This document shows, piece after piece, positions 2,591 to 25,139 of a stretch of 28,519 nucleotides of DNA. Numbering within the stretch: the stretch's first letter is position 1; every line of letters starts with the position of its first letter. The notes under the pieces were generated by a model. The model worked only from the letters and a program-made list of their open reading frames with translations. It did no database searches and was not told the DNA's origin. The stretch lies in IMG/VR virus record IMGVR_UViG_3300034093_002055, positions 1-28,519 of that record; one strand, written 5' to 3'. The DNA comes from a virus. A program made the position numbers and the translations under genes.

Positions 2591-2608
2591 CCACAGAACC
2601 AAAACAAA

Positions 2609-2845
2609 ATGAACACAATCAAACTAAACCGAATATTGTACGTTTACGCCCTAAATGGAGTGATAAAATGCCTATCCGCAGATGAAATCCAAGAAACGGA
2701 ATTGTTAGCAGCAGGATGGAAACACACCGCAACCATTGACCCAGCACTGTGGATTGAGGCGATGGCAAACGGGAGGCAAGAACCAAGCGATATGCTGGAT
2801 GAACTGCAATTCTCACCTGCGAACTACAAACCAACAGAACAATGA
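2609..2845 (+). CDS. Small hypothetical phage protein
   Basis: 78 aa. It starts 18 nt after the helicase stop and overlaps the next gene by 4 nt (ATGA), so it belongs to the same transcript. The N-terminal half looks beta-rich (IKLNRILYVYALNGVIKCLS), followed by an acidic helix (SADEIQETELLAAGWKHTAT) and a Pro/Glu-containing tail. There is no membrane segment or catalytic motif. I do not recognise a family; coding status rests on the clean start, operon overlap and soluble composition. Confidence 0.62.
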   Translation: MNTIKLNRILYVYALNGVIKCLSADEIQETELLAAGWKHTATIDPALWIEAMANGRQEPSDMLDELQFSPANYKPTEQ

Positions 2846-3117
2846 ACACAGAATCAGACACCCCGAAGACGGATGCGCTAATGCCAGACCAAGGACACAA
2901 GCGCACAATGTTTGAGCATATCGAAGCCATGGAAGCACACGCTCGCCAACTAGAGCGAGAGCTTGCCGATGCAATGGCAGCACTGCGGAACTTGACGGAT
3001 GAGATCGGCAGGCATGAAAGCGCAAGCATGATGCATCCACGGCTTACCAGAGCGATTGCGGCAGCAAATAGACTAACCAACGAAAAAAAAGAGCAAGAAA
3101 AATCCATTGATACATAA
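2842..3117 (+). CDS. Small coiled-coil protein with SDTPKTDA start
   Basis: 91 aa. It opens with the ESDTPKTDA motif found at the start of many small phage proteins of unknown role, followed by a helical stretch, residues ~27-60, containing ARQLERELADAMAALRN, likely coiled coil. The 20-nt DNA stretch at 2950-2969 encoding LERELAD is nearly identical to two stretches in the gene at 3819, so the two genes share a duplicated or shuffled module. It overlaps the upstream gene by ATGA and is followed by ~40 nt and then a promoter. Function unknown. Confidence 0.68.
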   Translation: MNTESDTPKTDALMPDQGHKRTMFEHIEAMEAHARQLERELADAMAALRNLTDEIGRHESASMMHPRLTRAIAAANRLTNEKKEQEKSIDT

Positions 3118-3156
3118 AGGCTAGAGAACTATTTTCAATTTTATTTCAGAAATCGC

Positions 3157-3186
3157 TTTACAATTTGCAAGGAATCAGTGTATTGT
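3157..3186 (+). promoter_or_regulatory. Sigma70-type promoter, TTTACA-18-TATTGT
   Basis: The gap after the gene ending at 3117 carries TTTACA (3157-3162), an 18-nt spacer and TATTGT (3181-3186), followed by GCGC at 3189. The -35 region and the start of the spacer (CTTTACA-n-TTTGCAAG) are almost identical to those of the promoter at 28351, with the same 18-nt spacing, which argues against chance. It would drive the small-gene operon starting at 3224, leaving a leader of roughly 30 nt. Confidence 0.55.
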
Positions 3187-3223
3187 GAGCGCGCCGCAGG
3201 GCAACAACCGAACACGCAACATT

Positions 3224-3415
3224 ATGAAACTTACACCAGCAACAAAAAACGCAATCGCAAAATACGGAATCGAAATCTGCATTGCAGCATTTGAGCAGCA
3301 CAACACGCACGGCGAAGGAGCAAGCACAGTGGCGCACAGTCACGCAATCCTGAAAGGTAACACTCGCATGGGTGACGCTGCAATCAACGCAGGACGCGAA
3401 CTCGCAAGCAAGTAA
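3224..3415 (+). CDS. Small hypothetical protein
   Basis: 63 aa from the ATG at 3224. A GTG at 3185 would add 13 residues but lies on the -10 box of the upstream promoter, so the ATG is preferred. The sequence looks like a compact helical protein (MKLTPATKNAIAKYGIEICI, later GEGASTVAHSHAILKGNTRMGDAAINAG). No catalytic or membrane signature is visible. It is the first gene after the 3157 promoter and is separated from the next gene by ~50 nt. Function unknown. Confidence 0.6.
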   Translation: MKLTPATKNAIAKYGIEICIAAFEQHNTHGEGASTVAHSHAILKGNTRMGDAAINAGRELASK

Positions 3416-3467
3416 TAACCGCAATCAGGGGCGCGACTGCTACGCGCAAACTCAACAAACTACCACC

Positions 3468-3641
3468 ATGATCGAACACATCCAAAAACTAACCGAAGCC
3501 GAAGCCAAGCTCCTGCTGCTATTCGCAATGCAGGATCTGCGCAAAGCAATATACAACCCATCACCAGCAAGCGACGCGATCACGCTCGGCTGGCTCACGC
3601 AGAAGATCGAAACCCTCAGCAAAGAAAACTCAGAAAAATGA
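3468..3641 (+). CDS. Small hypothetical helical protein
   Basis: 57 aa from the ATG at 3468 (context ACCACCATGATC). The frame stays open back to an upstream start at 3372, but that would overlap the previous gene by 44 nt and add a Gln/Asn-rich stretch, so the shorter form is preferred. The protein is mostly helical (MIEHIQKLTEAEAKLLLLFA). It ends in a 4-nt ATGA overlap with the following membrane protein gene. No family recognised. Confidence 0.57.
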   Translation: MIEHIQKLTEAEAKLLLLFAMQDLRKAIYNPSPASDAITLGWLTQKIETLSKENSEK

Positions 3642-3826
3642 CCACCATCGACCAAATCATCTTAACGATTGCGATCATCGCGATCCTGATTGCCATCTTG
3701 CACATCGTTTTCCTTTGGGCAACGCATCAGCCACAGGACATCAGCTATTGCTTGCCACCGACCGACCTTGACGGCAGGGACGCGCAGGGCAGCGCATTCG
3801 GCAAGAAAGGAGGCTCCCATGAGTGA
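3638..3826 (+). CDS. Small single-pass membrane protein
   Basis: 62 aa. Residues ~5-28 form a very hydrophobic stretch (IDQIILTIAIIAILIAILHI) that predicts one transmembrane helix, followed by a ~35-residue polar tail ending in GKKGGSHE. It starts by ATGA overlap with the upstream gene and overlaps the next gene by 8 nt; its last codons contain the strong ribosome-binding sequence AAAGGAGG used by that gene. It lies far from the lysis genes, so I do not call it a holin. Role unknown. Confidence 0.6.
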   Translation: MTTIDQIILTIAIIAILIAILHIVFLWATHQPQDISYCLPPTDLDGRDAQGSAFGKKGGSHE

Positions 3827-4064
3827 TACACCGAGGACAGACGCAGCCACGCGCATGGCTTTCTCCGGCGAATACATGGTGCCAATTCAGGACGCACAGA
3901 AGCTAGAGCGCGAGCTTGCCGAGGCGAAAGAGGCGGATGCAGGACTCATGCGTGCCTGCGACTACCTAGAGCGCGAGCTTGCCGACATGACAAAGCAGCG
4001 CGATGCGTTGGCGGAGGGATTAGACAAAGCTCTAGCAGCCTTGAAAGGAGAATTACATGAGTGA
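3819..4064 (+). CDS. Small coiled-coil protein with SDTPRTDA start and duplicated LERELA module
   Basis: 81 aa. The ATG at 3819 has a strong ribosome-binding site (AAAGGAGG, 6 nt upstream), which decides the start over the longer open frame. The protein begins SDTPRTDAATRMAF, then carries two copies of LERELA about 21 residues apart inside a predicted coiled coil. The matching DNA is an exact 20-nt repeat (3903-3922 and 3966-3985), and a one-mismatch copy lies in the gene at 2842. It overlaps its neighbours by 8 nt on both sides. Proteins of this kind are common in phages but have no known function. Confidence 0.72.
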   Translation: MSDTPRTDAATRMAFSGEYMVPIQDAQKLERELAEAKEADAGLMRACDYLERELADMTKQRDALAEGLDKALAALKGELHE

Positions 4065-4260
4065 ACGCGCCTTGGAACTAGCCACCGCGCTGGAGGCTGA
4101 GCTGCTGGCGCAATGCGACAAGCTTGAGGCGACAATGCAGCGACCAGAGTATCCATCGTTTCCAATCGACGAACGCAGTCAGATCGAGCGCAAACACGCG
4201 GAGATCAGCGGACTGCTGACTCAAGCGGATTTTATGAAATACCAATTATCGAGATTATGA
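4057..4260 (+). CDS. Small hypothetical coiled-coil protein
   Basis: 67 aa. A good ribosome-binding site (AAAGGAG, 8 nt before the ATG) supports this start. The first ~25 residues are a heptad-like acidic helix (ERALELATALEAELLAQCDK) and the C-terminal half is a second helix after a Pro-containing break. It overlaps the upstream gene by 8 nt and the downstream gene by 4 nt (ATGA), so it is translationally linked to both. No family recognised. Confidence 0.64.
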   Translation: MSERALELATALEAELLAQCDKLEATMQRPEYPSFPIDERSQIERKHAEISGLLTQADFMKYQLSRL

Positions 4261-4877
4261 ATATGACAAAAGAACTATCGGAATCCCTGCTAGCAGCGTG
4301 CAAAGCGGCGGGGATTGAGACGCCCAGGTATATCGCGCAGGATGAAAATGGAACCGTTTGGCATTATGATGGAAAACCCGACACGACATTTACATTGGAT
4401 GTTGGTATTTTTTCGTTTTATCCAAATTTTGGTGAACGCACCATTAACCTTGACCACCCGCCCTACGCCGACGATTGGAAAGAGAGCTTGCTTGAATGGG
4501 TTGATCATGTTGCCGACACCAGCAAAATGACTGATGAACAAATCAACATCGCCATCGCGGAAGCGTGTGGTTGGACGTGCCTTGGGCAAGTAGAAGGGTG
4601 CAAACCACATGGCTACCCGCCTGACGCTCGCAAACCTACAACCAAGGAATTGATCAAAGGATACGGGCCGTCACCGTGGGATGTCCCAGACTACTGCAAC
4701 GACTTCAATGCGATGCATCACGCTATGCTGTTACACCCTCGAAAAGAACTGCTAAGAGACTTTCTCTACCTAGAAGTGCTAGAAGACCCAACAAACACAA
4801 CAAACGAACCAGCGTGGGCAACAGCTAAGCAATGGGCAACTGCTTACCTGCGATCAATCGGAAAATGGATTGAATGA
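4257..4877 (+). CDS. Phage protein with ABA-sandwich-type domain
   Basis: 206 aa. The N-terminal ~85 residues are unrecognised (alpha/beta, with YIAQDENGTVWHYDGKPDTT). From about residue 92 the sequence reads EQINIAIAEACGW, later PDYCNDFNAMHHAMLLHP, then a WATAKQWATAYLRSIGKW end. That spacing of an INxAIAEACGW helix and a PDYxNDxNAMH helix is typical of the widespread phage ABA-sandwich domain, whose biochemical role is unknown. The start at 4257 overlaps upstream by ATGA; an alternative ATG lies two codons later. The ATGA at its end overlaps the next small gene. Confidence 0.72.
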   Translation: MNMTKELSESLLAACKAAGIETPRYIAQDENGTVWHYDGKPDTTFTLDVGIFSFYPNFGERTINLDHPPYADDWKESLLEWVDHVADTSKMTDEQINIAIAEACGWTCLGQVEGCKPHGYPPDARKPTTKELIKGYGPSPWDVPDYCNDFNAMHHAMLLHPRKELLRDFLYLEVLEDPTNTTNEPAWATAKQWATAYLRSIGKWIE

Positions 4878-6929: not shown

Positions 6930-7727
6930 ATGAAAAACAAACCAAAAATAGAAATACTCAAAACCGACTCACTGATTCCCTACGCTAGAAACAGCCGCAC
7001 GCATAGCGAGGCACAGGTAGCACAGATCGCTGGCAGCATGCGAGAGTTTGGCTTCACGAACCCAGTGCTGATCGACGGAGAGAATGGCATCATCGCCGGT
7101 CACGGTCGCATCATGGCAGCGCAGAAGCTCGGACTCGCCGAAGTGCCGTGCATTAGGCTCGATCACCTCACAGAGACGCAGCGCAAGGCTTACGTCATCG
7201 CTGACAACAAGCTCGCGTTGAACGCCGAGTGGGATGAGGACATGCTCGGGCTGGAGCTGGCAGACCTGCGGGAGTTGGATTTTGATTTAGACCTGACTGG
7301 TTTTGATGGGACTGAAATCGAAGCTGCACTCAATCCTCCTGAGTTGGATCCAAATGAATCGGATGCTGATCTTTACTCGCACAAAGTCGAAACACCGATC
7401 TATGAACCGAAGGGTGATAAGCCTCCGATTGAAGAACTGGCAAACCATGAAAAGGCAAACAAGCTAATTGCAGCAATCAAAAAAGCCAAGCTGCCCGTTG
7501 ATGTCTCATCATTCCTTGAAGCGTCAGCTGCTCGCCACATCATTTTTGATTACGGCAAGATCGCCGAGTTTTACTGCCACGCTGACAAGCCAACTCAAGA
7601 GTTAATGGAAGATTCGGCACTGGTAATCATTGATTTCAAGAAAGCAATCGCTGACGGCTACGTTAACCTGACCAAGCGTCTGCAATCGCAGTTTCAAGAA
7701 GCAACCTCTGACTTTTCGGAAGAATGA
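6930..7727 (+). CDS. ParB/Srx-like protein linked to DNA modification
   Basis: 265 aa. Residues ~7-90 are a ParB N-terminal-like (ParB/Srx fold) domain: IEILKTDSLIPYARNSRTHS, VLIDGENGIIAGHGRIMAAQ, then VPCIRLDHLTETQRKAYVIA. In phages this domain is often fused to a DNA methyltransferase, but there is none here. The C-terminal half (YSHKVETPIYEPKGDKPPIE, DYGKIAEFYCHADKPTQELM, SALVIIDFKKAIADGY) resembles the tail of ParB-like proteins encoded next to TET-associated glycosyltransferases in phage base-modification clusters. The next gene is such a glycosyltransferase, overlapping by ATGA. A role in directing base modification is inferred; chromosome partitioning is unlikely because no ParA is present. 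Confidence 0.8.
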   Translation: MKNKPKIEILKTDSLIPYARNSRTHSEAQVAQIAGSMREFGFTNPVLIDGENGIIAGHGRIMAAQKLGLAEVPCIRLDHLTETQRKAYVIADNKLALNAEWDEDMLGLELADLRELDFDLDLTGFDGTEIEAALNPPELDPNESDADLYSHKVETPIYEPKGDKPPIEELANHEKANKLIAAIKKAKLPVDVSSFLEASAARHIIFDYGKIAEFYCHADKPTQELMEDSALVIIDFKKAIADGYVNLTKRLQSQFQEATSDFSEE

Positions 7728-8575
7728 AATTCGCAGCATTTATTTTATCCCATGGACGGGCTGAATCAGTAATCACCTTTGCCACTCTGCGCAAACAAGG
7801 TTACGATGGATCGATCTTTATCGTGATCGACAACGAAGACAGCCAAGGCGACCAGTATCGCGAAAAATATGGCGATCAAGTCGTGGTATTCGACAAGAAT
7901 AAGTATGCAGAAGCCACTGACAACTACGACAACTTTAAAAACTATCGAAGCACGACCCACGTTAGGAACGCCATATTTGATATTGCAAAAACAAAAGGTG
8001 TTGAGGCATTCGTAATGCTTGACGACGACTATTCGTTTTTCTGCTACAAGTTCAATGGATCACTGAAATACGGTGACTGGCTACACAAGCGAAGTCTCGG
8101 AATATCGTTTCTTGCTGTCGTTGATTTACTGAAATCATGTCCAAAAATATCGTCAATCGCATTTGCTCAGCAGGGCGACTTTATCGGCGGCCCGAATGGT
8201 GGCTTCTCGCAAGCTGTAAAAACAAAGCGAAAGGCCATGAACAGCTTTTTCTGTTTGACGGCACGTCGATTTAATTTTGTGAGCAGATTGAATGAGGACG
8301 TTAACACATACATGACACTTGGAATGCGTGGTGAAATTTTTCTAACGATAAACCAAATTTCGTTGAATCAGCAAACCACTCAGGCAAATGCCGGCGGAAT
8401 GACAGAAGCCTATTTATCCAGCGGCACTTATGTGAAAAGTTTTTACACGGTAATGGCAATGCCATCATCAACAAAAATCATGCCGATGGGATGGACAAAC
8501 CCACGGCTTCACCACCGGATAAGTTGGAACAATTCAGTTCCAAAGATTATTGATGAAACGCACAAAAAATCATGA
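7724..8575 (+). CDS. TET-associated-type glycosyltransferase (TAGT-like)
   Basis: 283 aa GT-A-fold glycosyltransferase. Visible features: FAAFILSHGRAESVITFATL start, FIVIDNEDSQGDQY, THVRNAIFDIAKTKGVEAF, the metal/nucleotide-sugar motif MLDDDYSFF (D100-D102), LNEDVNTY near residue 192, and a C-terminal block GTYVKSFYTVMAMPS followed by LHHRISWNN. This pattern fits the TAGT family, described from phage clusters in which a TET/JBP dioxygenase makes hydroxymethylcytosine and TAGT adds a sugar. The ATGA overlap with a ParB-like gene is typical of those clusters. No TET/JBP, hydroxymethylase or methyltransferase gene is visible in the window, so the substrate base is unproven. Confidence 0.78.
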   Translation: MKFAAFILSHGRAESVITFATLRKQGYDGSIFIVIDNEDSQGDQYREKYGDQVVVFDKNKYAEATDNYDNFKNYRSTTHVRNAIFDIAKTKGVEAFVMLDDDYSFFCYKFNGSLKYGDWLHKRSLGISFLAVVDLLKSCPKISSIAFAQQGDFIGGPNGGFSQAVKTKRKAMNSFFCLTARRFNFVSRLNEDVNTYMTLGMRGEIFLTINQISLNQQTTQANAGGMTEAYLSSGTYVKSFYTVMAMPSSTKIMPMGWTNPRLHHRISWNNSVPKIIDETHKKS

Positions 8576-8679: not shown

Positions 8680-9342
8680 ATGAGTGAAAAAAACGTCATC
8701 ACGCCAGAAATGGCGCAAAAAATACAAAGCGCAAACATTGACAACATCCTGAAAAAGGTAAAGGCAGGCAAGGTGCTGACAGCTCAGGAGCAAAAAGCGA
8801 TTGCTGAAAATAAGCAAGATGAAGTAGTTGATAAAAAAACTCCATTATTTACTGCTCGTCAAATGACCGAAGCTCTAGACGTAACAGCGGGTAGAATTAC
8901 GCAACTCAAAAACGATTGCGTTCTTGTGCCAGTTGGAAGCAAGTATGATGCCATTGCGTCAATGCGTGCTTATGTTAAAAAATTGCGAGACAAACAAAAG
9001 GACGTTATCACTTTTGAAGGCGTGCCGGACATCGACGAATCTAAAGCTCGCAAGGAGGCAGCGCAGGCGGGACTAGCAGAGTTGAAGCTTGCAGAGGAGA
9101 AAATGGAAGTTGTCAGGATCGCAGAGATCGACACGCGAGATGCTAAGATTGGCGCAGCAGTCAGGGCAGCGACCATGAAGCGCAGATCAGAATTGCCGCC
9201 TATTTTGGAGGGGTTGAGCGCAAATCAGATTGCGGCAATCCTCGATGAGCGAGATCGTGACTTTCTGGAAATGCTTGCTGACCAGCAAAGCGAGTTTTGG
9301 GAGCGCAGGGAAAAACTAAAAGCAGCAATGGAAAATGAGTGA
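8680..9342 (+). CDS. Terminase small subunit, Nu1-like
   Basis: 220 aa. After a helical N terminus (NIDNILKKVKAGKVLTAQEQ) comes an HTH-like segment (FTARQMTEALDVTAGRITQL), then a long acidic/basic helix (KARKEAAQAGLAELKLAEEK, RIAEIDTRDA) and a helical C terminus (AAILDERDRDFLEMLADQQS). The DNA-binding domain followed by the helix that joins the large subunit is the plan of lambda Nu1-type small terminases, which recognise the packaging site. It overlaps the large subunit by 8 nt. Subfamily assignment is by pattern and position. Confidence 0.8.
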   Translation: MSEKNVITPEMAQKIQSANIDNILKKVKAGKVLTAQEQKAIAENKQDEVVDKKTPLFTARQMTEALDVTAGRITQLKNDCVLVPVGSKYDAIASMRAYVKKLRDKQKDVITFEGVPDIDESKARKEAAQAGLAELKLAEEKMEVVRIAEIDTRDAKIGAAVRAATMKRRSELPPILEGLSANQIAAILDERDRDFLEMLADQQSEFWERREKLKAAMENE

Positions 9343-11035
9343 TGCATTTTGCCGAGCGGTCAGACCGCCATCAGATTTACAAGTTGCCGATTGGTGCGCT
9401 CAAAACGTGCATATTGTCGGATCAGAACGCTCATCGAAATTTGACATCGATCAATTCCCCTGGTGGAGATTTCCGATGGAGCAGATCCGCAACCATGACG
9501 TGCAAGAGGTTTACGTTACCATGCCAACAGGCAGCGGAAAATCAACAATGGCAGAAGCGTTATTTTGCTACATTGTAAGCGAGGATGCAGGGAATTTGCT
9601 TTACGCATCGCAGGCAAACGACAAGGCGAAGTTTTGGGCAGAGTCTCGATTGTTGCCAGCATTAAAAAGGTGTAAATCACTTGAAAGTTTATGGCCCGAG
9701 GATCGGCACAGCTCGCGCAAAACGGAGATCATCTGGCCTCACATGGCGATGCAATTCGTGGGCGCGAACCTCACAAACTTCCAAGAGGTGTCAGTTCGCT
9801 ATGTTTTCGGCGACGAGGATTGGCGATGGGATGATGGATTAATAAAAGAAGCATTGGCGCGGCACCATGAGCGATGGAATCGAAAAGCGTTTTTCGTTTC
9901 GCAGGGCGGTTACAAGCACAAAGAAGGATTTAGAAAGCGCGAGATTGCCACGGAATACATTTACAAATGGGCATGTCAGGGCTGCGGGAATTACCACGAT
10001 TGGAGCGATGCAAATCTGAAATATGACATTGTAAAAAAAGACGGGGAAATAGACCGACAATCAACGTGCGATACGGCGCGGATTCAATGCCCGAACTGTG
10101 GACACATTCACAAAGACAGCATTCAGGATCGCCGGGCATTGTGTGATTCCAGCACTTACATTTTAGAGCGCATCGGCAGTAATCCACGAATGGTTTACAT
10201 CCACGGAGTGACACGGCTCACTATGTGGTGGGTTTCATATAGCGAGGTCGTCGGCAGGATTCTCGACGCAAAGGATCAGCTAAACAATGGGCGAATTGAG
10301 CCATGGAAGCAGTTGCGGCAAAAAGACTTTGCAGAGTTTTGGGATGAAAACTTTGTGCCAGACAAAAAGGAAATAGCCATCGGTGACTTTTCAAAAGAGG
10401 AACTAAGCGCAACACCAATCGAAAACGAGCATGGACGCTACATGACTATTGACTGTGGCAAAGGGCATTACTGGCATATTGGCGCGGCATGGACTAAAGA
10501 CGCAAAATGCAAAGTTCTTTCCGAGGGTTACATCGATAGCGAGGCAAAGCTAAAAGCGGTGCAGGACAAAGCTGGAATCGCAGCAAGTAACGTGTTTGTT
10601 GACATTTCATGGGACACGGAAAACCTTGACGTTCTCGCGATGATTGAGCGCAACGGCTGGACGGGCATTAGAGGTAGCGACAAGCTAGAGTTCACGCATC
10701 AAACGCAGGATGGGAAACAAGTTGCCAAGGCGTATTCGAAATACGGACGCATGATGACTAAGAGCAAGCAGATCGTGCGTTACTTTTTCGTATCGTCAAA
10801 ACGATTCAAAGATGACACCGATGGATTGCTCAACGCTGGCAGGATTGAGCTGCCGATTGATGTTAGCGACAACTTCCGCAATCACCTGAAGGCAGAGGTC
10901 AAAGCTGAGACAACAGACGGAAAAGGCAACGTCACGCAGTTCTGGAAAACTCTGAATCGTAACAACCACTTGTGGGACTGTCTTTATTACAATGTTGCAG
11001 TTGCTTACGTTCGCGGCGTTTTCAAGGGTGAATAA
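9335..11035 (+). CDS. Terminase large subunit, lambda gpA family
   Basis: 566 aa (lambda gpA 641). ATPase domain: Walker A-like MPTGSGKS (residues 63-70) and an acidic FGDEDWRW segment (D160-D162) at the Walker B position. A zinc-ribbon-like insert has CQGCG (C214, C217) and CPNCG (C252, C255), typical of the gpA family. The nuclease domain offers TIDCGKGHYW (D373), FVDISWDTEN (D423) and a late WDCLYY (D548) as the probable metal-binding acidic residues. The protein cuts concatemers and drives DNA into the prohead. The start at 9335 overlaps the small subunit by 8 nt. Confidence 0.94.
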   Translation: MSDAFCRAVRPPSDLQVADWCAQNVHIVGSERSSKFDIDQFPWWRFPMEQIRNHDVQEVYVTMPTGSGKSTMAEALFCYIVSEDAGNLLYASQANDKAKFWAESRLLPALKRCKSLESLWPEDRHSSRKTEIIWPHMAMQFVGANLTNFQEVSVRYVFGDEDWRWDDGLIKEALARHHERWNRKAFFVSQGGYKHKEGFRKREIATEYIYKWACQGCGNYHDWSDANLKYDIVKKDGEIDRQSTCDTARIQCPNCGHIHKDSIQDRRALCDSSTYILERIGSNPRMVYIHGVTRLTMWWVSYSEVVGRILDAKDQLNNGRIEPWKQLRQKDFAEFWDENFVPDKKEIAIGDFSKEELSATPIENEHGRYMTIDCGKGHYWHIGAAWTKDAKCKVLSEGYIDSEAKLKAVQDKAGIAASNVFVDISWDTENLDVLAMIERNGWTGIRGSDKLEFTHQTQDGKQVAKAYSKYGRMMTKSKQIVRYFFVSSKRFKDDTDGLLNAGRIELPIDVSDNFRNHLKAEVKAETTDGKGNVTQFWKTLNRNNHLWDCLYYNVAVAYVRGVFKGE

Positions 11036-20991: not shown

Positions 20992-21939
20992 ATGGGAAAC
21001 AAGACAAACTTACCAACAAACCCTCAAGCACCAAAGCGCGGCGATAGAGTCAAAGCTAAAGACATTCAGCAGTTGGCAGCGCAAGTGAAACGGCTTTCTC
21101 GCCAAGGACGGGACACGCATATAGGAGCATTTTACCGCGCTCCCGATTCGCCATTTATGCCAAAGCTACGAGGCAAAAAAGATGACCCGCAAGCTTATGA
21201 AATTGCATTGGCTAAAGGCTATGTAATTGAACGCAGAATTCCAGATGGCAATGCTTTGATTTATCATTTTCCGACAGGCTTAGTCGATGAGGATGACAAC
21301 CCGATTTATCACGACATTACAGACGGGCAGGCGATTTACGTCAAAGTATTAGTCAAAAAAGACGGCACCATTGAAGAAGAACCAAGCGTTTTAGTTGGTG
21401 AGGACGAGCTAGCGGGTGCGCATTATAAACCGAAGATTTTCGACTTCGATGGCGCGGACGGTGAACACAATTACAAGATCGCCGTATTTGAAATCGTGGA
21501 CAGCAAGCCAAGGCTTAAACTTTACGGCGCAGGTGACAACATCGACCATTACGATGAGCGGGTCACGATGGAAAACCTAGAAGCTGAAGGCGATTGCTAC
21601 GAAGTTGGCAAGACTTACAATGAGGCATCGGACAAGGTAGAATTTCGCAAGCTTAAGCAGCTATCAGGTGAAGGATCACCAGTCATTAAGGATCAAACTG
21701 ATGAGACTATAAATTTCAAGCGCATTAAGGCGCGAACATCCCCGACTCAGATAAATGTAACCGATGATGGAGACGCGATTAAAGTTCATGGCAATGGCGT
21801 TCAAGGAGTATTAAAACATATTTCATGTACTGGAGTTGAAACAGATATACTTACATGGGATGATGGTTTGATCACGTCGGCAAGCACATCGTTTACCGCA
21901 GGATGCTCAGGAAGTGGTAGTGGGAGGGAAATACCATGA
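20992..21939 (+). CDS. Tail-associated structural protein
   Basis: 315 aa from the ATG at 20992, one nt after the previous stop; an in-frame TTG at 20953 would only add residues overlapping that gene. A basic, helical start (RGDRVKAKDIQQLAAQVKRL) is followed by beta-rich segments (IERRIPDGNALIYHFPTGLV, YKIAVFEIVDSKPRLKLYGA) and a Gly/Ser-rich end (GCSGSGSGREIP). Such proteins are common after the tail hub in phages and often attach fibres. It overlaps the glycosyltransferase gene by ATGA, whose ribosome-binding site GGGAGG lies in its last codons. Function unassigned. Confidence 0.62.
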   Translation: MGNKTNLPTNPQAPKRGDRVKAKDIQQLAAQVKRLSRQGRDTHIGAFYRAPDSPFMPKLRGKKDDPQAYEIALAKGYVIERRIPDGNALIYHFPTGLVDEDDNPIYHDITDGQAIYVKVLVKKDGTIEEEPSVLVGEDELAGAHYKPKIFDFDGADGEHNYKIAVFEIVDSKPRLKLYGAGDNIDHYDERVTMENLEAEGDCYEVGKTYNEASDKVEFRKLKQLSGEGSPVIKDQTDETINFKRIKARTSPTQINVTDDGDAIKVHGNGVQGVLKHISCTGVETDILTWDDGLITSASTSFTAGCSGSGSGREIP

Positions 21940-23258
21940 TCAAAAAAGCAATCGTTTGTTGCCACGAAGCAGATCAAGAAATGCTGCCAATTTTTATCGA
22001 GCGGTGGCGTGATTTATATCCCGATGTTGAGCTATGGCTAGGCAACGACAACGTGAAGCCAGTTACGATTGACCATGATTTGCCAAGCGTGAAAATCACA
22101 TGGGGAAACGGAGTTGCCAGAAGCATCGTCAACGCCATGCTTGAAACGGGCGGCGATATTGTGGCAAAGCTGGATGTTGATGCCTGGCACTTGAAAAATA
22201 ACCTATTTGATCCTTTTTCTCAATCGTGGGTCATGGCAAGCGGTCATCAATGGCAAAACCAAGCTGGCAGGTTTTTGGGCATTGCTTACGCAATCAAACG
22301 CGAGGCATTGCTTAAGATCACCATATCGCAATCATGCGATTCGATGCGCGGCAATCAAGAGGATACAGCAATGAGTCAGGCGGTGCGCAGGAGCTACCCT
22401 AATGGCGTTTATTTGTTCCCGTTTATGCAATGCCGCAGAGCTGATACATGGAACGGCGAGGACGCATCATTGATCCATTGTGGGCTTTACGGACACGATG
22501 AAAAAGGAAGAAGCAATGCGCTCATAGAATTGCAGCGATTGGCAAGCGGCGAACACGTCACAAGCAGCGAAAGCGCATGGGTGGGGATGTCGGTTATGCC
22601 ATCACGTTTGCATGGCGTTGGCGCAATCATCGACCATATGACAAGCGGGAACACAAAACCAAAAGGAGTAATACTCTCGATCCCGAATCACGCATTTAGA
22701 ACCGATGAGGATTATGACGAATCCGAGGTCGAAAGGCTAAGTGAAAAACACATTGTCAGACGGACAAAAGATTATGGCGCGATTACAAAATACATCGGTA
22801 TTTGCGAGCAAGTGCAGGATGAAGATTTGTGCATCATTCTTGATGACGATTGCCAATACTCACCACAGCTTGTGGCACGCATGGCAAGCGAATACAAGGA
22901 AGGTCACGCCATGGCGAATAGCGTATTTCGCATTTACAACACCGACTTGCCAGAGGGTTATGGCGCGGTGATTTTCCGACGATCACTGATTGACTTAGAA
23001 AAGCTCAAACGATTGATTTATTTTTTGAATGAGAATTTTACTGAGGCTTTATTGGCTGATGACGCAATCATGGGCTGGTATTTCCGCAACAACGGCGTGC
23101 CAGTCACGAAGCCAGACAAGCCAGTTCACACCAATCCAGCGGAATCGAATTACGACGATTGTGCATTGCACAAGATCGCGGGTGGGCATTTTGATCGCTA
23201 TCAGCGCACGCTAAAATTTCTCTACGAAAATGCCGATGCGATAAATAAATTGACATGA
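21936..23258 (+). CDS. Two-domain glycosyltransferase inside the tail operon
   Basis: 440 aa with two GT-A-like halves. Half 1: AIVCCHEADQEMLPIFIERW, VAKLDVDAWHL with a DxD motif (D80, D82), and FLGIAYAIKREALLKI. Half 2, from about residue 242: KGVILSIPNHAFRTDEDYDE, ITKYIGICEQVQDEDLCIIL, a DDD motif (D303-D305) and YGAVIFRRSLIDLEKLKRLI, later ADDAIMGWYFRNNG. Both motifs bind metal and nucleotide sugar in this fold. No signal peptide or membrane anchor. It is translated from a good ribosome-binding site with ATGA overlap to a tail protein and is followed by fibre genes. It may glycosylate a tail or fibre protein, or host surface sugars; the target is unknown. It is unlike the TAGT-type enzyme. 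Confidence 0.72.
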   Translation: MIKKAIVCCHEADQEMLPIFIERWRDLYPDVELWLGNDNVKPVTIDHDLPSVKITWGNGVARSIVNAMLETGGDIVAKLDVDAWHLKNNLFDPFSQSWVMASGHQWQNQAGRFLGIAYAIKREALLKITISQSCDSMRGNQEDTAMSQAVRRSYPNGVYLFPFMQCRRADTWNGEDASLIHCGLYGHDEKGRSNALIELQRLASGEHVTSSESAWVGMSVMPSRLHGVGAIIDHMTSGNTKPKGVILSIPNHAFRTDEDYDESEVERLSEKHIVRRTKDYGAITKYIGICEQVQDEDLCIILDDDCQYSPQLVARMASEYKEGHAMANSVFRIYNTDLPEGYGAVIFRRSLIDLEKLKRLIYFLNENFTEALLADDAIMGWYFRNNGVPVTKPDKPVHTNPAESNYDDCALHKIAGGHFDRYQRTLKFLYENADAINKLT

Positions 23259-23669: not shown

Positions 23670-25139
23670 ATGCCCGACGAAGTAATTTTAGACGTAACAA
23701 CGATTGAGGAAAATGTCACAGTTGAAACAACGGCGGGTGACGTGGTGGAAATACAAGTCGTTGCACCCGCTGGCCCTGCTGGAGCAACAGGCCCCGCTGG
23801 CCCGAACAGCGTAACAAGCGCAACGACATCGGACGGCACGGCAAATTTATCAATTGCCGACTTGGAAGTAGTAGGCGGCGAGATTTACACAGACGGTGAT
23901 TATTCACAAATTTACACGCAGGGGACAGATGCGCATATTTTTACGCTTGGATCGGGAGCTGAAATTTTTACCGAAGGCGAACTAGCTCAAATTTACACTA
24001 CTGGAGCATCAGCGCAAATTTACACAGCAGGAGCAGGAGCGACAATCGGCACGCAAGGAGCAAATGCAACGATCTACACTACAGGCACAAACGCTACAAT
24101 TTCAACCGCAGGTTCAGCGGCACATATCCAGACATCGCACGCAAACGCAGCGGTGAAAAGCACCAACTTTGCAGCAGTCGAAAGCGGAGGCGCATCGCTT
24201 GTCGATGGCAGCTTTCAACCTTGCCTCACTTGGAGCGCGGGAGGGCGCAACCTGACTATTCCAAGCGGAACGGCAACCACCTTTAACACCACATCCTACA
24301 CCTACGGAACAGGGGCAGCGGCAGCACACAGAGACTCGCTAGGGCTTACAACGCTCGCAACGACGACACCAGCGGCAAACGTAGCAACATTTCTTGCCAC
24401 GCCAACCAGCACGAATCTTGCCGCAGCGGTCACAGACGAGACTGGAACAGGCTCATTGGTTTTTGGCACATCGCCATCGCTGACCAGTCCGACGATTGGC
24501 ACCTCGGCAACATTCAACGCGACAACTTATACTTACGGTGCAGGCGCAGCGGCAGCGCATCGCACGGCTTTAGAGCTTGATACATTACTTGCTTTAAAAG
24601 CCAACTTAGCTGGTGGCAACACATTTACGGGTGCACAAACGATTACGGGGGCAAGTCTAACGTTACAAAATGCAGGAGCGGTCACTCTCGCTCTAAACGA
24701 CACATCAAACGCAAACATACCTGCTTTCAATTTGCAACAGCTTGGCACGACTAGAGGAAGGATTGAGGGTGGAGTTGGTCTAACTTCAAGGCTTGATTTT
24801 AGTGTGGGAATCCCGCTTAGTAGGTCGATGAGCCTCAACCAAGGAGGCACTCAAAACTACGGCGTGACAATCGGGAGAAGCTCTATAGCAGGAAATGTAG
24901 CACCTCCGACTGACGGTCTTCACGTTCAAGGAACTGTTGCAATTGGAACAACAACGCCAAGCGCAAAGGCAATTCTCGACCTTACAAGCACCACTAAAGG
25001 TTTCTTGCCACCGCGCATGACAACGACAGAACGAAACGCGATTACTAGCGTTCCCGCTGGGCTAATGATCTATAATACCTCACTAAACAAACTTAATGTT
25101 TATAACGGAACAACTTGGGAAACCGTAACATCACTATAA
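23670..25139 (+). CDS. Tail fibre / receptor-binding protein
   Basis: 489 aa. A short N-terminal beta part (residues 1-31) is followed by four collagen-like Gly-X-Y triplets (PAGPAGATGPAGP, ~33-45), ten 9-residue repeats (72-161), then two related blocks containing TFNTTSYTYGTGAAAAHR and TFNATTYTYGAGAAAAHR, a helix/Thr-rich shaft (LANLAGGNTFTGAQTITG type) and the C-terminal TTKGFLPPRMTTTERNAITS and KLNVYNGTTWE segment. That ending is widespread in phage fibres and often acts as a trimeric tip. It probably binds the host surface. The gene closes the tail module. Confidence 0.86.
   Translation: MPDEVILDVTTIEENVTVETTAGDVVEIQVVAPAGPAGATGPAGPNSVTSATTSDGTANLSIADLEVVGGEIYTDGDYSQIYTQGTDAHIFTLGSGAEIFTEGELAQIYTTGASAQIYTAGAGATIGTQGANATIYTTGTNATISTAGSAAHIQTSHANAAVKSTNFAAVESGGASLVDGSFQPCLTWSAGGRNLTIPSGTATTFNTTSYTYGTGAAAAHRDSLGLTTLATTTPAANVATFLATPTSTNLAAAVTDETGTGSLVFGTSPSLTSPTIGTSATFNATTYTYGAGAAAAHRTALELDTLLALKANLAGGNTFTGAQTITGASLTLQNAGAVTLALNDTSNANIPAFNLQQLGTTRGRIEGGVGLTSRLDFSVGIPLSRSMSLNQGGTQNYGVTIGRSSIAGNVAPPTDGLHVQGTVAIGTTTPSAKAILDLTSTTKGFLPPRMTTTERNAITSVPAGLMIYNTSLNKLNVYNGTTWETVTSL
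23883..24152 (+). repeat. Ten 27-bp repeats encoding a nonapeptide array
   Basis: Residues 72-161 of the fibre protein fall into ten 9-residue units of form IxTxGxxAx (IYTQGTDAH, IFTLGSGAE, IYTTGASAQ and others). The strict 9-residue period with Ile at position 1, Gly at 5 and Ala at 8 predicts a beta-solenoid or triple-stranded fibre shaft. The DNA copies are diverged, so it is an old expansion. Confidence 0.72.

Follow-up and report, generated by a model that had tools for sequence, protein, structure and literature searches.

Well-described DNA glycosylation in phages, exemplified by the T-even and RB69-type systems, begins from a base that already bears a hydroxyl or hydroxymethyl group, as far as the available portions of the sources go (PMC13390438, PMC13216743). 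A 28,519-nucleotide stretch of viral DNA (positions 1 to 28,519 of IMG/VR record IMGVR_UViG_3300034093_002055, here called the window) raises the question of how a glycosyltransferase might modify DNA when no enzyme that prepares such a base is recognised beside it. The window encodes a ParB/Srx-like protein with an all-helical C-terminal domain (CTD) and, directly behind it, a glycosyltransferase of the TAGT family. We hold with moderate confidence that this gene pair is a self-contained cassette for DNA modification, in which the ParB domain would recruit a CTD-TAGT unit that glycosylates phage DNA without a known phage-encoded hydroxylase.

The TAGT glycosyltransferase and its ParB-CTD partner

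The window TAGT matches Pfam family PF20691 over residues 5-224 with 110.4 bits against a cut-off of 27.5 (E 1.5e-31), and it also matches PHROG 842. This bears out the original prediction, made from the sequence alone, of a TAGT-type enzyme whose open reading frame (ORF) overlaps that of a ParB-like gene; both frames are present and share the four bases ATGA (Table 1). The AlphaFold model of the enzyme (pLDDT 92.9) adopts a GT-A fold. Its best match among solved folds is GalNAc-T2 (Z 13.9, rmsd 4.7, 224 residues aligned), which is tied with GnT-I (Z 13.8, rmsd 3.6, 198 aligned), and the four top matches in a viral library are named TET-associated glycosyltransferases.

The sequence blocks named in the original prediction (DDD, GTYVKSFYT, and LHHRISWNN) are present and conserved over 95 TAGT sequences; the alignments hold these 95 and 79 ParB-CTD proteins of the listed sequences. 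D101 and D102 are invariant and D100 is found in 92 of the 95, and the triplet is presumably a DXD motif that binds metal and a nucleoside diphosphate (NDP) sugar. G234, T235, K238, and F240 of the GTYVKSFYT block each occur in 91 sequences, while R261, H263, H264, and W268 of the late block occur in 91, 90, 91, and 92, with three rows gapped at H264. Six loci carry tandem TAGT copies, which may add further sugars that extend the first one. The first copy in L066 and L095 has no HH..W block, as would be expected if that copy does not meet the base itself.

The ParB-CTD protein contains an N-terminal ParB/Srx domain (N-domain), a poorly conserved linker, and the CTD. Its predicted ParB/Srx identity held up: the protein matches PHROG 620 at 1.1e-66, and the N-domain model superimposes on the bacterial ParB/Noc/Spo0J fold with Z 15.5 and rmsd 2.7 over 135 residues. 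The single-sequence score for Pfam ParB_N is 23 bits, just under the cut-off of 26.3, and the ParB profile matches Noc at 4.4e-13. Four residues that we take to line a CTP pocket are widely retained among the 79 sequences: N21 in 78, G57 in 79, R60 in 70, and N93 in 76. The linker includes residues modelled at pLDDT below 50 (143-153), and residues 116-147 form the least conserved stretch measured.

The CTD is modelled as a compact, all-helical domain and is more conserved than the ParB domain across the 79 sequences, with R202, Y215, and D235 invariant. A fold search over residues 158-265 returned weak matches only (Z below 3), a result that neither proves nor rules out a known fold, and the three invariant residues leave room for an enzymatic role. 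The CTD was considered as the missing oxygenase and rejected, since its all-helical model is unlike the 2-oxoglutarate oxygenases, which are built on a double-stranded beta-helix. Mantel tests over 67 loci with one TAGT each gave r values of 0.578 for CTD and TAGT, 0.235 for the ParB N-domain and TAGT, and 0.283 for the ParB N-domain and CTD, with a permutation P of 0.001 in all three cases; since related sequences do not count as independent, nothing beyond the rank order of these values is relied on. CTD distances follow those of TAGT better than the N-domain does, although CTD and N-domain belong to one polypeptide.

Search for a base-preparing enzyme

No TET/JBP match (PF12851) over the cut-off of 34.9 bits was found in any of 35 records of the TAGT clade to which the window belongs. 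The original prediction had reported no TET/JBP, hydroxymethylase, or DNA methyltransferase in the window, and the searches agree: there is no thymidylate-synthase, C5-methylase, or N6/N4-methylase match, and the sole TET/JBP match is an antisense stretch at 2378-2476 that scores 10.5 bits and is regarded as noise. When 45 window ORFs were scanned against Pfam, the best 25 of 29 families likewise included no oxygenase or methylase. Among the 35 records, the thymidylate-synthase family appears once, in a Vibrio phage gene annotated as thymidylate synthase beside dihydrofolate reductase, and C5-methylase also appears once; 33 of the 35 are without all three families at the thresholds tested. The T4-type alpha- and beta-glucosyltransferases (PF11440, PF09198) were each found in 0 of 35, a weak negative because no control genome matched either profile. 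The thymidylate-synthase search matched 9 of 14 control genomes. For PF12851, the TET protein of mycobacteriophage Nigel was found at 4.2e-8 but under the cut-off, while that of contig L157 scored over it.

The original prediction allowed that a hydroxylating enzyme might be encoded outside the window, which is now unlikely given these 33 records and a close relative that extends further. IMG/VR contig 3300042385_000712 (34 kb) is identical to the window over 4561-28519, or 84% of the window, and runs about 10 kb past its end. Searched for TET, thymidylate-synthase, and C5-methylase, this contig gave no match to any of them, and a hydroxylase outside the window was accordingly rejected, being found neither in this relative nor in the 35 records. 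The additional sequence of the relative encodes, among others, an N6/N4 methylase, RecT, and YqaJ. As a required partner, an amino-methylase was also rejected, since N6/N4 methylases occur in only 5 of the 35 records.

Many of the viral contigs are fragments, but the entries for the Lactobacillus phages c5 and jlb1, for HHTV-2, for NTR1, and for the Porphyromonas phage were submitted as complete genomes. Phage c5 (31.8 kb, 50 annotated coding sequences, 48 of them scanned) has no oxygenase, methylase, or thymidylate synthase among the best 25 of its 54 Pfam families. An all-against-all comparison of ORFs of at least 60 residues covered seven phage records, two of them partial: the window, c5, the first 50 kb of HHTV-2, jlb1, NTR1, the Porphyromonas phage, and a 16.8-kb piece of an E. 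coli phage. Only TAGT and ParB-CTD are common to all seven, or indeed to more than three, and one other family reaches three records. A third enzyme as conserved as TAGT should therefore have appeared.

In a minority of the relatives, TAGT is accompanied by a radical-SAM enzyme. A radical-SAM gene of 311-357 residues starts between -22 and +5 bases from the TAGT stop codon in 8 of the 120 sources described below (L007, L022, L087, L103, L107, L111, L113, and L116), and Pfam confirms the assignment in all eight. In those phages, the enzyme could serve in base preparation or in alteration of the sugar. As a general hydroxylase it was rejected and kept as an accessory lead only: the window has no such gene, and just 3 of the 35 records contain one that scores over the cut-off.

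A second TAGT clade, comprising 80 loci found with L214 as the query (L214 and L267-L345), was taken as a TET-linked contrast, and that expectation failed. Searches of 42 of the 80 loci gave TET over the cut-off in 0 of 42, with one 13-bit match below it, and C5-methylase in 0 of 42. The pairing of TAGT clusters with a TET/JBP dioxygenase, one of the sources of a hydroxylated base named in the original prediction, thus holds in the sampled records of neither clade, and the contrast does not single out the clade of the window; a TAGT without TET may be the norm and no peculiarity of this cassette. Members of the second clade begin MNPKYPIYIISKGR, and in the loci read a small domain of about 85 residues (MPEF...IWFP) precedes TAGT, either free or as a ParB tail. 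At L278 and L304, Pfam identifies an NAD-dependent epimerase/dehydratase behind TAGT.

Distribution and genomic pairing of the CTD and TAGT

The cassette is widespread and mobile, and not a gap in one contig. A tblastn search with TAGT returned 39 phage records assigned to Lactobacillus, Escherichia, Vibrio, Aeromonas, Haloarcula, Porphyromonas, Salmonella, Nocardia, and one other, some of them copies of one phage. Profile scans contributed 80 viral contigs, the best of 454, together with 31 contigs from bacterial genome assemblies. Added to the window and 8 phage loci, these 111 contigs bring the number of sources to 120.

TAGT has a CTD-bearing gene no more than 1 kb upstream in 117 of the 120 sources, as a ParB domain plus CTD in 99, as a CTD-only match in 16, and as a gene broken by the contig end in 2. 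Eleven of the 16 CTD-only sources, each with at least 900 bases upstream, carry a stand-alone CTD gene of 128-153 residues; in the other five, the upstream sequence is too short. Two of the three sources without a CTD have no upstream room, and the third, L094, has the ParB part only. Of 102 ParB-TAGT pairs measured, a set that excludes matches of fewer than 200 profile positions and the entries L001-L009 from reference lists, 97 have a gap of -23 to +14 bases, and 4 of the other 5 are second tandem TAGT copies.

The pairing also holds when the search starts from the CTD. A CTD query returned 28 phage records, all 28 of which fall within the 39 TAGT records, and in CTD-seeded viral contigs TAGT adjoins the CTD at 31 of 32 scored loci (of 33, with L029 left out), the remaining TAGT lying about 0.8 kb downstream. 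Because the two occur together in both directions, the CTD-TAGT pair looks like the functional unit, with the ParB domain as an optional front end.

The cassette typically lies next to packaging genes. For 92 of 105 downstream genes, the first large gene matches Terminase_6N in 38, Terminase_3 in 25, GpA_ATPase in 17, and TerL_ATPase in 3, counts that may overlap. In Nocardia phage NTR1 the order is ParB-CTD-TAGT-terminase, and in phage c5 an annotated cos site precedes the cassette. The next large gene at L105 encodes a DNA polymerase beta-clamp-like protein and not a terminase. A few genes downstream of the cassette, Porphyromonas phage PP754928 carries an annotated ADP-ribosylglycohydrolase (24049-24831).

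Other enzymes behind the same ParB domain

The ParB N-domain is shared with several other classes of DNA-modifying enzyme. Querying viral contigs with it and taking the best 80 of 379 yielded N-domains 66-93% identical to that of the window, its near twin aside; many of these contigs are near copies, above all in the Mom group. The gene behind the 44 short ParB proteins encodes Mom in 24, a C5-methylase in 12, an ABC ATPase in 3 (two of which carry an acetyltransferase domain), TET in 2, TAGT in 1, and an N6/N4 methylase in 1. Long ParB proteins are fused to N6/N4 methylases in 33 of 34 cases. The near twin, L155, is left out of the short set, and L227, which is cut and has no next gene, is in neither. 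Among the non-TAGT contigs, 72 of 78 carry a Mom, methylase, or TET gene, and the remaining six consist of the three ABC ATPase contigs, L218 and L227 with a methylase-like DPPY motif only, and L178 without an assignment.

Read by eye, the ParB tails differ with the enzyme: C5-methylases and some Mom genes follow zinc-ribbon-like tails, TET and Mom genes follow other tails, and TAGT follows the helical CTD. The C-terminal extension that the original prediction had ascribed to base-modification clusters at large instead accompanies this TAGT clade, since the TET-, Mom-, and methylase-linked ParB proteins that were read have other tails. With other base modifiers behind the same ParB domain, TAGT occupies the position of a DNA base modifier. 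In mycobacteriophage Nigel, the order is ParB-TET-terminase. The Nigel gp2 gene (776-1744) is annotated as a queuine tRNA-ribosyltransferase; its sole Pfam match is Tet_JBP (4.3e-6, under the cut-off), and the annotated label is probably wrong. At L157 (4001-6133) and L220 (1966-4107), the order ParB, TET/JBP, and FkbM-type methyltransferase (PF05050, 2.5e-8 and 2.4e-8) suggests that a hydroxylated base becomes O-methylated. A 449-residue gene further along L157 reads as terminase-like without a Pfam match, and a query of the contigs with the L157 TET recovered its own contig only.

Relation to known systems

TET/JBP-TAGT hypermodification clusters, with TAGT beside a ParB-like gene, were reportedly described by Iyer et al. 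in 2013, in a survey that is also said to have named the TAGT family. Both clades studied here differ from such clusters in having no TET over the cut-off among the records searched. The ParB-Mom, ParB-C5-methylase, ParB-TET, and ParB-N6/N4-methylase systems share the N-domain and place their enzyme downstream or in fusion, and ParB-TET of Nigel occupies the same pre-terminase place as the cassette. The cassette departs from those systems in its enzyme, a glycosyltransferase, and in its ParB tail, the helical CTD. The other ParB-linked modifiers act on canonical bases or on T/5-methylcytosine.

The TAGT of phage T6, a beta-glucosyl-HMC-alpha-glucosyltransferase, adds glucose to glucosylated hydroxymethylcytosine (HMC), according to the accessible part of its report (PMC13216743), and is the one TAGT for which a published biochemical activity was found. 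It resembles the window enzyme in its Pfam family (PF20691), GT-A fold, and phage origin. Unlike the T-even phages, the 35 records are without a thymidylate-synthase-like hydroxymethylase, save the one gene annotated as thymidylate synthase, and the cassette records carry the CTD partner; the absence of alpha- and beta-glucosyltransferases is a weaker difference, given the silent controls. The window TAGT is only 23-24% identical to the Aeromonas T4-like TAGTs. According to the accessible part of the same report, TAGT occurs in the absence of an alpha- or beta-glucosyltransferase in 288 of 753 phage genomes, and its function is described as yet to be defined (PMC13216743, Nucleic Acids Res. 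2026, gkag531). The word ParB is absent from that report, and its accessible part mentions no partner domain, terminase position, or missing hydroxylase.

Other phages show further routes to a glycosylated base. In Shewanella phage Thanatos, a deoxypentose is O-glycosidically bound to cytosine without a hydroxymethyl group; that system differs in having a thymidylate-synthase-like candidate and a distinct 561-residue transferase candidate, and the word TAGT is absent from the text of the article (PMC12838424). RB69-type phages arabinosylate 5-hydroxycytosine made at the nucleotide level (PMC13390438, accessible part), and the available part of a jumbo-phage survey likewise infers that the 5-hydroxymethylcytosine of those phages is made at the nucleotide level (PMC7824862). 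Within the literature collection searched, TAGT together with ParB led only to apparently unrelated work on Bacillus subtilis, PF20691 led to PMC13216743 alone, and nothing on this pair was among the matches listed for related terms. An earlier description elsewhere is possible.

Proposed mechanism and alternative explanations

From the models and the genomic arrangement, we infer the following sequence of events. The ParB N-domain would load onto phage DNA, probably as an NTP-gated clamp, and the helical CTD would dock the TAGT enzyme there. With a metal ion and an NDP-sugar held at the DDD motif, TAGT would then move the sugar onto DNA that, most likely, no recognised phage enzyme has prepared. 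This transfer may take place at about the stage of packaging, and the sugar may shield the DNA against restriction systems and comparable defences. A tentative refinement, possible though doubtful, is that TAGT with its CTD attaches the sugar straight to an unmodified base, at an exocyclic amine or another canonical position, in a single ParB-steered step. The lean towards a one-step reaction stems from the Mom and methylase enzymes behind the same ParB domain, which need no prior hydroxylation.

Several observations weigh against the proposed cassette. In 11 of the 39 TAGT phage records, those of the Aeromonas, Porphyromonas, Ld17, and LL-Ku phages, no CTD was detected, and the 16.8 kb viewed of Vibrio phage pv27 contain CTD and TAGT but neither a ParB domain nor an annotated terminase. 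The neighbour counts are not independent, as the contigs include many near duplicates and represent the relatives nearest to the query. The T6 acceptor is an already glucosylated HMC, so action on unprepared DNA would mean a changed acceptor (PMC13216743, accessible part). Where a radical-SAM gene directly follows TAGT, as in 8 of the 120 sources, its product could prepare the base, and phage TETs are poorly captured by PF12851, such that a very divergent oxygenase could escape it.

The last of these points also feed an explanation that is unlikely yet carries real weight, namely that TAGT glycosylates a hydroxylated base supplied by an unrecognised enzyme, whether an unknown or divergent phage family, one that varies by phage, or an enzyme of the host. 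The hydroxyl-bearing starting points of the T-even and RB69-type pathways, the eight Pfam-confirmed radical-SAM genes directly behind TAGT, and the weakness of PF12851 are all consistent with it. However, the seven phage records have no third family in common, the best-matching families of c5 hold no candidate, and radical SAM is missing from the window and exceeds the cut-off in only three of the 35 records. A host source is harder to reconcile with hosts that span lactobacilli, Nocardia, Porphyromonas, enterobacteria, and a haloarchaeon; we know of none among them that hydroxylates its own DNA.

It is also conceivable, if improbable, that TAGT glycosylates a protein or other molecule, such as its ParB/CTD partner or a packaging or host defence protein, and that ParB only brings it to the DNA. 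The closest solved folds, GalNAc-T2 and GnT-I, are protein and polysaccharide glycosyltransferases, the constant small partner beside TAGT could itself be the substrate, and the cassette adjoins packaging genes. GT-A folds are alike across many acceptors, however, which leaves the fold match with little weight, and both the Mom, methylase, or TET genes in 72 of the 78 non-TAGT contigs with the same ParB domain and the reported action of T6 TAGT on DNA (PMC13216743, accessible part) argue for a DNA substrate. That the pair is an inactive, decayed remnant of a former TET-TAGT pathway is very improbable: the absence of TET would fit if TET was ancestral, but the catalytic and C-terminal residues are conserved over 95 diverse TAGT sequences, the CTD is conserved beyond the ParB domain, and the pair is intact in phages with no other gene family in common.

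Other features of the window

The cassette is followed by a probable small terminase subunit, whose product gave nothing over any cut-off in a Pfam search, and by the large terminase subunit (Table 1). Repeats and ParB-site-like palindromes were sought near the cassette and none was convincing, and promoters and terminators there were no more frequent than expected by chance. A second glycosyltransferase-like gene lies in the late region (21936-23258); it matches Glycos_transf_2 at 2.8e-9 and has no TAGT match.

About 2.1 kb of the sequence that 3300042385_000712 holds past the end of the window corresponds to window 2593-4718 at 99.7%, and this return suggests a circular or permuted map. Between the end of the window and that match, the relative carries about 6.5 kb of other genes, so that the replication region looks like a mosaic swap.

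Table 1. Coordinates of the cassette and adjoining genes in the window
Feature	Position	Strand	Length	Basis
ParB/Srx-CTD gene	6930-7727	+	265 aa	ORF, PHROG 620, ParB/Noc fold
ParB/Srx N-domain, residues 1-135	6930-7334	+		PHROG 620, ParB/Noc/Spo0J fold
Poorly conserved linker, residues 136-147	7335-7370	+		Low pLDDT and low conservation
All-helical CTD, apparent partner of the TAGT clade	7371-7727	+		Model helices and genomic pairing
TAGT glycosyltransferase, GT-A fold	7724-8575	+	283 aa	PF20691, PHROG 842, fold model
DDD, residues 100-102, likely DXD metal/NDP-sugar motif	8021-8029	+		Conservation
GTYVKSFYT block, residues 234-242	8423-8449	+		Conservation; just past the Pfam-matched stretch 5-224
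RLHHRISWNN block, residues 261-270	8504-8533	+		Conservation
Probable small terminase subunit, between TAGT and large terminase	8680-9342	+		Position only
Large terminase subunit, downstream of the cassette	9335-11035	+		PHROG 15 (8.2e-34), GpA_ATPase

Significance

A common cassette that operates with no known hydroxylation enzyme would point to either a new DNA-modification chemistry or a hidden hydroxylase. If the sugar is indeed attached directly to an unmodified base, the cassette would represent hydroxylation-independent DNA glycosylation, shared by bacteriophages and a virus of archaea. The ParB N-domain joined to a new tail offers a search handle for new DNA-modifying enzymes, with the CTD marking one class. 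That one ParB DNA-binding domain can be followed by Mom, TET, methylases, or a glycosyltransferase would also help to explain how phages exchange anti-restriction chemistries.

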